Shown in pieces: positions 1,920 through 5,400 of a stretch of 7,100 nt of DNA. This DNA is from Hyphomicrobiales bacterium (GTDB lineage Bacteria > Pseudomonadota > Alphaproteobacteria > Rhizobiales > Aestuariivirgaceae). A program made the position numbers and the translations under genes. Within the stretch, counting starts at the first letter, position 1; every line of letters begins with the position of its first letter. The stretch lies in the NCBI GenBank assembly GCA_027051995.1, contig JALUFY010000401.1, positions 668-7,767 on the forward strand, written 5' to 3'. Below the pieces are notes generated by a model. The model worked only from the letters and a program-made list of their open reading frames with translations. It was not told where the DNA came from and ran no database searches.

Positions 1920-2570
1920 ATGACGACGCCGGTTACGCCAGAACTGTTGTTGCGCGCCTATGCCTCCGGGGTGTTCCCCATGGCGGAGTCGGCGGATGAT
2001 CCGGATATCTTCTGGGTGGAGCCGGCGCTGCGCGGCATTATCCCGCTCAATGGCCTGCACATTTCGCGGCGGCTGGCGCGCACCATCCGCCAGCGGCCTT
2101 TCGAGGTGCGCGTCAACAGCGCCTTCGACGCGGTGGTGGAAGGCTGCGCCGAGCCGCGCCCGGGGCGCGAGAACACCTGGATCAACGCCACCATCCGCCG
2201 CCTCTATGGCCGCCTGCACGAGATGGGCCACGCCCATTCGGTGGAATGCTGGCGCGATAGCCGGCTCGCCGGCGGGCTCTACGGGGTGCATCTGAACGGG
2301 GCCTTCTTCGGCGAGAGCATGTTCTCGCGCCAAAGGGACGCCTCCAAGGTGGCCCTGGCGCATCTGGTGGCGCGGCTGAACGCCGGAGGATTCGCCCTGC
2401 TCGACACCCAGTTCATCACTCCGCATCTGGCCTCCATGGGCGCGGAGGAAATTCCCCGCGAAGACTACCTGGCCCGCCTCGGCCACGCCCTGCGCCTGCG
2501 CGGAGACTTCCACGCCTTCAAGGCGGACGACGATGCGGAGAAAGTCCTGCGGCTTGCGGGTTATCCTTGA
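1920..2570 (+). CDS. aat: Leucyl/phenylalanyl-tRNA--protein transferase
   Basis: Transfers Leu or Phe from charged tRNA to proteins with an N-terminal Arg or Lys, marking them for ClpS/ClpAP degradation (N-end rule, cytoplasm). With the start at 1920 the protein has 216 residues. It shows ELLLRAYASGVFPMAE (8-23), FWVEPALRGIIPL (31-43), the central HSVECW (106-111) with GGLYGVHLNGAFFGESMFS (118-136), DASK, and FALLDTQFITPHLASMGA near the end; together these diagnose the family. An in-frame ATG at 1908 would add four residues (MERG), but its upstream G-run lies inside a hairpin and homologues usually begin just before TPELLLRAY, so 1920 is preferred. The last codons (Ala-Gly-Tyr-Pro) lie in an 11-bp direct repeat, and the TGA stop comes from the DNA just after that repeat. 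The stop may therefore have been supplied by the inserted cassette. Confidence 0.96.
   Translation: MTTPVTPELLLRAYASGVFPMAESADDPDIFWVEPALRGIIPLNGLHISRRLARTIRQRPFEVRVNSAFDAVVEGCAEPRPGRENTWINATIRRLYGRLHEMGHAHSVECWRDSRLAGGLYGVHLNGAFFGESMFSRQRDASKVALAHLVARLNAGGFALLDTQFITPHLASMGAEEIPREDYLARLGHALRLRGDFHAFKADDDAEKVLRLAGYP
2556..2566 (+). repeat. Left copy of 11-bp direct repeat flanking the RM-vsr cassette
   Basis: GCGGGTTATCC, identical to 5390-5400. It encodes the last residues of aat. Extending five bases to the left, three of five also match the other copy (GGCTT versus GGTTG), giving 14 of 16 overall. Confidence 0.8.
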
Positions 2571-2590
2571 TATTGAAATAAGCTCCTGCT

Positions 2591-2626
2591 TTGTTCCGAT
2601 ATTAATTTTGTTCTTGTCTTGTTCCG
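2591..2626 (+). repeat. Three TTGTTC repeats upstream of the methyltransferase promoter
   Basis: TTGTTCCG at 2591-2598, TTGTTC at 2608-2613 and TTGTTCCG at 2619-2626, starting 17 and then 11 bases apart. They lie in the AT-rich leader just upstream of, and overlapping, the likely promoter. They could be binding sites for a regulator of the restriction-modification genes, or simply low-complexity AT-rich DNA. No controller gene is visible. Confidence 0.35.
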
Positions 2627-2664
2627 TTTTGTGGCATATAAAACAGGCAATTTCCGCCGGAGGG
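2614..2664 (+). promoter_or_regulatory. Likely sigma-70 type promoter and ribosome binding site for the methyltransferase-endonuclease operon
   Basis: A -35 like TTGTCT (2614-2619) is followed after 17 bp by a -10 like TATAAA (2637-2642), in the most AT-rich stretch of the window. A transcript would begin near 2649. GGAGGG (2659-2664) then lies 7 nt before the methyltransferase ATG at 2672. The spacing and matches are good, but this is motif-based only. No terminator separates aat from this promoter, so read-through from aat is also possible. Confidence 0.55.
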
Positions 2665-2671
2665 AAATATC

Positions 2672-3739: not shown

Positions 3740-3755
3740 TGGAGGACAGGCCGGA

Positions 3756-4982
3756 ATGAGCGCGCCGCAACTGTCATCACTCTTCACGGGCGTCGCCGTA
3801 AAGATACTCTCGGCTGTCGAGGCGGAGCAGGCACGATCCAATCAGCATGAATTCAATGGCATCGCGGCGCTGAAACCTCTCCTCGGTGATAAGAGGCAGG
3901 AGCGCATACAGGCGAAATTCCTGTATCTGGGAGATGAAAACGAAGGGATTTCCGATGAAGGCTTCCTGACGTGGTATGACGCCAGAGAGCGCAATCCGGC
4001 CCGCTCGGAATGGCGGCTCTATTTCCGCCGCACCGAAGTCATGAACATCGCCGCCGCAGGCGACCTTCTTCTGTTGGCCAGACGCCCGGACGGCACTTTT
4101 GTCGTCATCGTCACGCCGCCGGATTCCGGCTTTGTACCCGGATTGCTGCGGCTGTTCGGCGTAACGGACGGCCTTGAGGAACATTTCAGATTCCGAAATA
4201 CCGCGGATGACGGGCGCGGACTGGATTTTGCCTCCCGTTTTATCCTCGAAGAACTCGGAATAGCTGGCGGAGAAGAAGAAGACGCGAAAATCATCGAGCT
4301 CGTCGGCCGGATGCGTGGTGACGGGCCATTCCGCTTTCCTTCCACGAGACACATATCCGCGCTGGCGCGGGAACACGCGGAGGCTCCCGATCCCAGAGAC
4401 GATCCGGACGCCGCCCTGCTGGCCTGGCTGGATTATGAGGGAAAACTTTTCGCCCACATGGAACGGGCCGTCCTCGGAGAGCGTATTGCGGCGGGCTTCA
4501 TGAAAGATGGCGAACCGGATGTTGATAATTTTCTTGAAACGGCTCTGTCCGTTCTCAACAGGCGCAAATCCCGCATGGGGCTTTCACTCGAGAATCATAC
4601 GGAACAAATTCTCCGCCTGTGGAATATCGCATACACGCGCGGAGCCGTGACCGAAGGGCGCTCCAGACCGGATTTTCTTTTTCCGGGGGAACGGGAATAC
4701 CATGACCCCGCCTTTGATCCGGAGCGCCTGGACATGCTTGGCGTCAAGTCCACCCTGAAGGACAGATGGCGGCAGGTTCTCGCCGAAGCGGCGCGCATCG
4801 CCGAAAAGCACCTGCTCACCATACAGCCGGGTGTATCCGTGAATCAGATGGATGAAATGCAGCGCAACAGTCTGAGACTGGTCGTGCCAGCCGAACTGCA
4901 CGCCGCATACGGGGAAAACGCGGGGCGGCTTCTTTCAATGAAGGACTTCCTGCGCATGATTACCATCAAACAGAATCGATGA
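3756..4982 (+). CDS. EcoRII-like type II (IIE) restriction endonuclease
   Basis: Predicted restriction partner of the upstream methyltransferase, cutting unmethylated CCWGG. The length of 408 residues matches EcoRII (404). The N-terminal half (about 1-180), with TWYDARERNPARSEWRLYF (72-90) and GDLLLLARRPDG, resembles the EcoRII-N effector-DNA-binding domain, which in EcoRII restrains cleavage until a second site is bound. The C-terminal half is the PD-(D/E)XK-type catalytic domain: RRKSRMGLSLENH (269-281), TEGRSRPDFLFPG (299-311), LGVKSTLKDRWRQ (328-340), then an EAARI helix. Asp306, Tyr315, Lys331 and Glu344 fall exactly 7 residues after the EcoRII residues I recall as catalytic (Asp299, Tyr308, Lys324, Glu337), so the site looks intact. 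A GGAGGA RBS (3741-3746) lies 9 nt before the ATG. The last 17 nt overlap the convergent vsr. Function is inferred from the motifs. Confidence 0.92.
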   Translation: MSAPQLSSLFTGVAVKILSAVEAEQARSNQHEFNGIAALKPLLGDKRQERIQAKFLYLGDENEGISDEGFLTWYDARERNPARSEWRLYFRRTEVMNIAAAGDLLLLARRPDGTFVVIVTPPDSGFVPGLLRLFGVTDGLEEHFRFRNTADDGRGLDFASRFILEELGIAGGEEEDAKIIELVGRMRGDGPFRFPSTRHISALAREHAEAPDPRDDPDAALLAWLDYEGKLFAHMERAVLGERIAAGFMKDGEPDVDNFLETALSVLNRRKSRMGLSLENHTEQILRLWNIAYTRGAVTEGRSRPDFLFPGEREYHDPAFDPERLDMLGVKSTLKDRWRQVLAEAARIAEKHLLTIQPGVSVNQMDEMQRNSLRLVVPAELHAAYGENAGRLLSMKDFLRMITIKQNR

Positions 4983-5382
4983 TGCGTTCCCTGATTATTT
5001 TTTCGAGTGTATCCGGGTCTTCCGTTTCACATTCCCAGATGATGACCGGCTTCCAGCCGGCGGCGGCCAGTCCGGCGGCGGCTCTTTCATCCCGCGCGAC
5101 ATTGTCGCGGAATTTCCCCTGCCAGAAATCAACCCGGCTCTTTGGCTCATAGGCCTTCGGACACCCGGGATGCCGATGCCAGAAACATCCATGCACGAAA
5201 AGGGCTATGCGCCTTCCGGGAAAAACAAGGTCGGGCGTTCCCGGAAGATCCTTCCTGTGCAATCTGAACCGCAACCCCATGGCGTGCGCCATGCGGCGGA
5301 CACGCAGCTCCGGCCTGGTGTCCCTGCTCCTGATCCTGGCCATCAGGGCGGAACGGCGTTCTGGCGATATGATGTCCGTCAT
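4966..5382 (-). CDS. vsr: Very short patch repair endonuclease Vsr
   Basis: Nicks DNA 5' of the T in T:G mismatches formed when 5-methylcytosine deaminates in the Dcm-type site, starting repair back to C:G. At 138 residues it is the normal length. SPERRSALMARIRSRDTRPE (6-25) is the family N-terminus. Catalytic Asp51 (in GTPD), His64 and His69 (in HGCFWHRH) keep the same numbers as in E. coli Vsr, and Glu25 is present. Likely zinc ligands are Cys66, His71, Cys74 and Cys118; the third and fourth are shifted by one relative to E. coli. FW (86-87) and IIWECE also fit. The gene runs against the endonuclease (17-nt tail overlap) and lies 12 nt after the DUF2155 stop. I see no Shine-Dalgarno match in front of it, so it may be translated by reinitiation from the upstream operon. 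Confidence 0.95.
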   Translation of the reverse strand: MTDIISPERRSALMARIRSRDTRPELRVRRMAHAMGLRFRLHRKDLPGTPDLVFPGRRIALFVHGCFWHRHPGCPKAYEPKSRVDFWQGKFRDNVARDERAAAGLAAAGWKPVIIWECETEDPDTLEKIIRERIIDSV

Positions 5383-5389
5383 CAGGTTG

Positions 5390-5400
5390 GCGGGTTATCC
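5390..5400 (+). repeat. Right copy of 11-bp direct repeat flanking the RM-vsr cassette
   Basis: GCGGGTTATCC, identical to 2556-2566. On the minus strand this copy contains the TAA stop of the DUF2155 gene (5395-5397). It begins only 7 nt upstream of the vsr ATG, so the cassette contributes almost no leader to vsr. Confidence 0.8.

Follow-up and report, generated by a model that had tools for sequence, protein, structure and literature searches.

A restriction-modification-vsr cassette between 11-bp direct repeats at the convergent ends of aat and a DUF2155 gene

The locus and its cassette

We analyzed a 7,100-base stretch of contig JALUFY010000401.1 from a Hyphomicrobiales bacterium (the window). 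The host genome assembly is 2.14 Mb in 457 contigs and is 89% complete. In the window, the gene for leucyl/phenylalanyl-tRNA--protein transferase (aat) and a convergent gene of the DUF2155 family are separated by predicted genes for a C5-cytosine DNA methyltransferase, an EcoRII-like restriction endonuclease, and a vsr-like mismatch endonuclease. Both borders of this restriction-modification-vsr cassette carry the same 11 bases, GCGGGTTATCC, and we ask how the cassette came to lie between them. The features of the cassette are:

2567..5389 (no strand): likely inserted cassette of about 2.8 kb (step in GC content, gene content)
2567..2671 (+): AT-rich leader ahead of the methylase gene, with GGAGGGAAA before the start codon (sequence)
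2672..3739 (+): dcm-like C5-cytosine DNA methyltransferase (PF00145, 1.9e-82; TIGR00675, 2.9e-93)
3756..4982 (+): EcoRII-like restriction endonuclease with the EcoRII-C catalytic domain (PF09019, 3.6e-62; residues 189-400 against solved EcoRII, 9.9e-38)
4966..5382 (-): vsr-like mismatch endonuclease (PF03852, 1.3e-30; TIGR00632, 5.8e-42; solved Vsr, 8.2e-25)

The cassette has a GC content of 0.53-0.61 in 500-base segments, versus 0.65-0.73 in most segments of the flanks. (The flank segment 6501-7000 is also low, at 0.58.) The three genes fill the cassette, and vsr is convergent with the endonuclease gene, so that their 3' ends overlap by 17 bases. The set resembles known EcoRII/Dcm/Vsr sets in that a methylase of the dcm superfamily lies beside an EcoRII-C endonuclease, together with Vsr, but it differs from them in the N-terminal half of the endonuclease, which has no recognised domain and no sequence match to EcoRII. 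We did not find a significant fold in the methylase leader (2567..2671).

The first-pass annotation had noted that no transposase, integrase, or terminal inverted repeats accompany the cassette, and our searches agree. A Pfam scan of the ten window proteins found neither kind of mobility gene. The ends of the cassette do not form terminal inverted repeats: the first 10 end bases pair at 0 of 10 positions, and the best local inverted matches between 30-, 60-, and 105-base ends were equalled by 416, 128, and 127 of 500 shuffles. ARAGORN called no transfer RNA (tRNA) gene in the window, where we also found no remnant of an attachment site.

The 11-bp direct repeats

The repeats coincide with the ends of the two flanking genes:

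1908..2570 (+): aat (PF03588, 2.5e-69; TIGR00667, 1.8e-59)
2556..2566 (+): left copy of GCGGGTTATCC, where the coding sequence of aat ends (sequence, exact match)
5390..5400 (+): right copy of GCGGGTTATCC, which contains the DUF2155 stop codon (TAA, minus strand, 5395-5397; sequence, exact match)
5401..5407 (+): likely original last codons of aat (the rest of Pro, Gly, TGA), severed by the insertion (reading of the joined flanks)
5395..5889 (-): DUF2155 gene, convergent with aat (PF09923, 1.7e-30)

The two border copies, which the first-pass annotation had pointed out, are indeed the only exact matches to the 11-mer on either strand of the window. The host assembly contains the 11-mer three times, with one exact copy in an unrelated place besides these two. 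(The third copy, at L001:1501-1511 on G000:C219, lies within GCGGGATAACCCGC, where a reading frame ends, and looks like chance.)

A chance match between the borders was also thought improbable, and this claim held up. When 50-base stretches drawn from the window were paired at random, 37 of 18,922 pairs (0.2%) shared at least 11 bases, and when flanks of about 200 bases were shuffled by mononucleotides, a match of 11 was reached in 1 of 200 shuffles in each of two runs. By these figures, the border regions would share such a match, at any position, with a probability of 0.2-0.5%. For an 11-mer at two fixed borders, the probability is about 5e-7, or about 6e-5 if we allow a slack of 11 x 11 positions. 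The placement of the repeats on the gene ends is more telling than any of these figures. At present, aat ends in LAGYP*, and its stop codon (TGA) lies in the cassette, within the first few bases. If the flanks are joined at one copy of the repeat, then the aat frame reads ...VLRLAGYPG*, with the seven bases past the right copy completing the end of Aat. In this joined site, both protein tails use the bases TTATCC, on opposite strands of one stretch. If the ancestor had both tails, then we infer that at least these six bases are now doubled.

The first-pass annotation had extended the match further to the left (14 of 16 bases), but this is probably a coincidence. Beyond the exact 11 bp, the next 12 bases match at 7 of 12 positions leftward and at 3 of 12 rightward. 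The sequence to the left of the right copy is the leader of vsr, which by eye resembles the leader in a homologous cassette from a Rhodobacteraceae bacterium (L050); the resemblance reaches to about the repeat and does not continue within it. We also considered that the right copy might be part of a longer homology to aat (VIRLAGYP versus VLRLAGYP). We rejected this because those bases are the start of vsr and its leader, and L050 has a similar leader.

A CCGGG sequence (a CCNGG site) at 5399-5403 shares its first two bases with the end of the right repeat, and the joined empty site would contain it too. We considered and rejected the border as a target of the cassette's own nuclease: CCNGG sites occur in the host at 0.0118 per base, so one within a few bases of a border is unremarkable. 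Within 80 bases of either border, CCWGG is found only at 5335.

Gene tails and empty sites in relatives

The joined site predicts how the two proteins should end in relatives that lack the cassette. For Aat, we read the first 18 tails of at least 120 relatives listed by a protein search. The closest Aat among the matches listed (P0001, 95% identical) ends in ...VLRLAGYPG, which is the predicted tail. Two other relatives end in LAGYCG (P0002, 87%) and LAGYRG (P0013, 86%), a fourth ends in LAGYRRAGA (P0005, 84%), and the tails of the remaining 14 differ. Thus, a single glycine after LAGYx ends 3 of the 18 proteins read, or 3 of the 4 that are at least 84% identical, and the Aat of the window stops just before it. 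For DUF2155, six tails of at least 120 listed relatives were read. The closest among the matches listed (P0121, 95% identical over 90% of the query) ends in PDQPG, as does the protein in the window (PDQPG*); the other five differ. At the level of protein tails, then, the relatives would agree with a single-copy empty site, which is not proof of one.

The two genes are neighbors in relatives. In the stretches that we fetched, DUF2155 is convergent and downstream of aat in 13 of 29 relatives' loci. The gap is below 200 bp in 12 of these, and in 5 of the 12 the genes overlap. (In two numbered genomes, G010 and G003, the gap is 7 bp and 119 bp, respectively.) Also, Aat P0013 and DUF2155 P0123 are each on a jgi contig of 1,583 bp, which by its equal length may be the same contig. 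If they do share it, there is no room for a 2.8-kb insert besides both genes.

The cassette itself is rare. Among 11 genomes of the genus, only the host has the endonuclease, and the other 10 (84-100% complete) have no match to it. Similarly, the full C5-methylase is found in 1 of the 11 genomes, and one other has a fragment.

Homologous cassettes

Of 397 genomes sampled from the order, 21 contain the endonuclease, including the host. The nearest named relative of the cassette is in Oceanicella actignis (L034), with 77% identity for the methylase, 60% for the endonuclease, and 67% for vsr, and with the genes in the same order and orientation. In L050, the endonuclease is 70% identical over its last half (the contig starts inside this gene), vsr is 72% identical, and the endonuclease and vsr have the same arrangement as in the window. 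The L034 cassette (L034:4471-8731) lies between an upstream tRNA-Cys gene and a downstream phage-type tyrosine integrase. Because a viral contig from IMG/VR (L108) is identical to L034 from base 4729 on, the cassette in L034 is located at one edge of a predicted provirus. Downstream in the fetched stretch, we found no further piece of the L034 tRNA of at least 12 bases. In L050, 37 bases (L050:1141-1177) are identical to the 3' half of the L034 tRNA-Cys and lie about 110 bases beyond the start of vsr, as an attachment site might show; ARAGORN called no whole tRNA in L050. Unlike these two cassettes, which are near tRNA-Cys sequences, with an adjoining integrase in L034, the cassette in the window has neither.

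There are also homologues on plasmids (27 records with one place covering at least 80% of the query, all below 60% identity) and in Burkholderia phage KL3. Because homologues are found near an integrase and provirus, on plasmids, and in a phage, the cassette family likely travels as cargo, although no vehicle is visible in the window.

Two oddities of these loci are worth recording. The L034 methylase (L034:4741-5979) is a single open reading frame with an N-terminal helix-turn-helix domain, and Pfam shows none in the methylase of the window. In Variovorax (L057), the match to the endonuclease is split into two pieces that lie on opposite strands and surround matches to the methylase and vsr.

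Probable insertion with duplication of the target

We think it probable that the cassette entered at the aat-DUF2155 junction by insertion, and that 11 bp from the overlapping 3' ends of the two convergent genes were duplicated in the process. In this scenario, the ancestral aat would have ended in LAGYPG* and overlapped the DUF2155 stop codon by 13 bp. A staggered break within the overlap would have been filled in while foreign DNA bearing the cassette was joined, which would leave one copy of the repeat on each side. As a result, aat would have lost only its last glycine, with the start of the cassette providing its stop codon, and DUF2155 would have kept its own stop codon. In type II systems, leftover nuclease attacks cells that lose the restriction-modification unit, and the cassette may then have been retained in this way.

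The first-pass annotation had left two readings side by side: insertion with duplication, or a junction made by homology-mediated joining. The Aat tail LAGYPG* in the 95% identical relative and the absence of the endonuclease from the 10 other genomes of the genus both favor the former. Of the readings considered, insertion with target duplication has the best support, and it remains a single case.

Several observations weigh against it. First, the nearest empty site at the DNA level, in the same-genus genome G001, does not contain the 11-mer. G001 has aat and DUF2155 in convergent orientation with 7 bp between their stop codons, so the genes do not overlap, and it has no cassette at this site and no endonuclease match genome-wide. 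With nothing between the two genes, the junction in G001 also lends support to an insertion in the window. An empty site of this kind had been named in advance as evidence against duplication, and taken literally G001 provides it. However, because the end of aat has diverged (LALLKSQ*), we judge that at such divergence the G001 site is uninformative and neither supports nor refutes the prediction of a single copy. Second, the 11-mer is also absent from the aat-DUF2155 loci of the other relatives, and among the 108 loci that we compared, only pieces of the host's own genome carry it. Third, P0001 and P0121 are on contigs of 4,757 bp and 9,572 bp, so the overlap of aat and DUF2155 in one relative is an inference. 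Fourth, in the same-genus genome G006, which has the top-scoring aat among 79 other genomes, a gene for a CitMHS-type transporter lies at the junction (L005:2257-3337), with flanking repeats of only 8 bases. As G006 carries another gene there, the junction also varies for other reasons; it may be a tolerant site for insertions.

Fifth, a search for other cassettes with short flanking repeats had been proposed, and our survey turned up no significant case. We entered 19 of 25 loci, with the gene ends set roughly, and tested 18 after L036 was dropped for its short flank. (The survey left out L040, L046, L048, L050, L054, L057, and the loci from the order-wide genome sample.) None of the 18 homologous cassettes had a significant flanking repeat. 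The longest matches were of 6-10 bases, and those of the best flanks, in L034 and L039, were equalled by 23 and 26 of 200 shuffles. Thus, an 11-bp repeat is no habit of the cassette family.

Finally, the joining step has no named enzyme. We rejected Ku-based end joining because we found no Ku in the 11 genomes of the genus (as a control, 1 of 14 named genomes was positive), and joining by the Ku pathway is therefore unlikely. (A competence gene, PF03772, is present in 10 of the 11 genomes of the genus and in 10 of 14 controls. It is common in bacteria generally, and we give it no weight.)

Other explanations for the repeats

The main alternative is that circular DNA, which contained the cassette and by chance one copy of GCGGGTTATCC, crossed over at the same 11 bases of the chromosome. 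This form of homology-mediated joining would give an identical structure, with the whole circle between two direct copies. The required identity would not be hard to come by: between a 2.8-kb circle and a 2.1-Mb genome, we calculate thousands of shared 11-base matches (with a match probability of 0.2675 per base). There is also a precedent, as PMC3031569 reports that in 2 of 28 products a plasmid with a restriction-modification system had integrated by a crossover where 1 or 3 bp were identical. On the other hand, the 11-mer is not present in any homologous cassette locus that we fetched. Also, the likeness of the vsr leader to that of L050 ends near the repeat. This points to a host origin of the right copy, although it concerns few bases and was judged by eye. 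We consider crossover of a circle to be unlikely, but we keep it as an alternative. Capture of the cassette at a break, with fill-in, and crossover of a circle yield the same product, and our preference for break capture is a thin one, because it depends on where the leader likeness stops.

A second possibility is that the cassette was integrated by a tyrosine recombinase that either acted in trans or was later lost. The 11-mer would then be the core of an attachment site that rebuilds the target gene at its 3' end. Site-specifically integrated elements usually restore the 3' end of their target gene. As in an integrase-borne island at the 3' end of a gene, the repeats restore aat except for its last glycine, and the tail of DUF2155 is intact; the target is the end of a conserved gene, and with the two copies the ends of both genes are kept. 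The closest named cassettes, at tRNA-Cys in L034 and L050, also fit. In contrast to such islands, the cassette does not include an integrase gene. The host genome, as far as it is complete, has one match to a tyrosine recombinase, on another contig, and this 327-amino-acid open reading frame looks like XerC. Also against this explanation are the lack of any tRNA in the window, of a second tRNA piece in the fetched stretch of L034, and of a tRNA call in L050. A second element with the 11-base core was not seen. This explanation seems quite improbable.

Third, the 11-base match could be due to chance, with the cassette joined without any duplication. The GC-rich local sequence favors matches, and 1 of 200 shuffles of the flanks reached 11 bases. 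However, both copies coincide exactly with gene ends (those of aat and DUF2155) that were located independently, and P0001 has the tail that the joined site predicts, so we find this very hard to credit. Last, the fragmented state of the host assembly raises the question of whether unrelated contigs were joined, but the chance of such an artefact is negligible: the genes of both flanks adjoin in relatives, an endonuclease 98% identical to that of the window is listed on a contig of a different length (7,374 bp), and joins of 11 bases are shorter than the usual assembly overlaps.

Relation to described mobile restriction-modification units

PMC3874152 describes two kinds of self-moving restriction-modification units: those with a short duplication and imperfect inverted repeats, and those with a long and variable duplication of about 100 bp. 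For the long variable target duplication, PMC3031569 and PMC3874152 point to Nobusato et al. (2000) and Furuta et al. (2010). As far as these sources describe it, the long-duplication class resembles our case in that restriction-modification genes lie between direct repeats, here likely the target sequence, at both borders and no mobility gene was found. It differs in that its duplication is on the order of 100 bp (PMC3874152), whereas the window has 11 bp exact. The short-duplication class, as outlined in PMC3874152, would be similar in the short repeats and in the transposon-like outcome, with the protein tails in support of a duplicated target. However, its imperfect terminal inverted repeats were not found in our cassette. 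The case thus fits neither described class fully, as it would combine a short duplication with the lack of inverted repeats, and we file it as a variant.

Insertion of restriction-modification genes with target duplication is, as such, already known. If our interpretation is true, the locus would be a clean case of a restriction-modification unit that moved although it has no mobility gene itself, in an alphaproteobacterial genus that has received little study. Such an overlap at the target would also show how a short duplication can make the insertion nearly harmless, as each neighbor keeps its own end. It also makes testable how such cassettes join genomes where no Ku is found, and it gives a precise prediction for the empty site. 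A bolder idea is that the cassette represents a third mobile class: restriction-modification cassettes that have no transposase, integrase, or inverted ends, that insert into overlapping convergent gene ends with short target duplications, and whose own nuclease opens the target (the CCGGG at the repeat). We regard this as a highly speculative idea that is very unlikely to be correct.

The surrounding genes

To the left of the cassette, the window contains, in order, the end of a class II tRNA-synthetase gene, a chorismate mutase gene, a quinolinate phosphoribosyltransferase gene, and aat. To the right, all on the minus strand, are the DUF2155 gene, a methyltransferase gene, and an MlaD-like gene. 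The DUF2155 open reading frame is listed as 5395..5889, and its homologues begin further in. At the end of aat, a terminator-like hairpin (2546-2560) overlaps the left repeat; there are 5 such sites in the region, as compared to 3.3 expected from shuffles.

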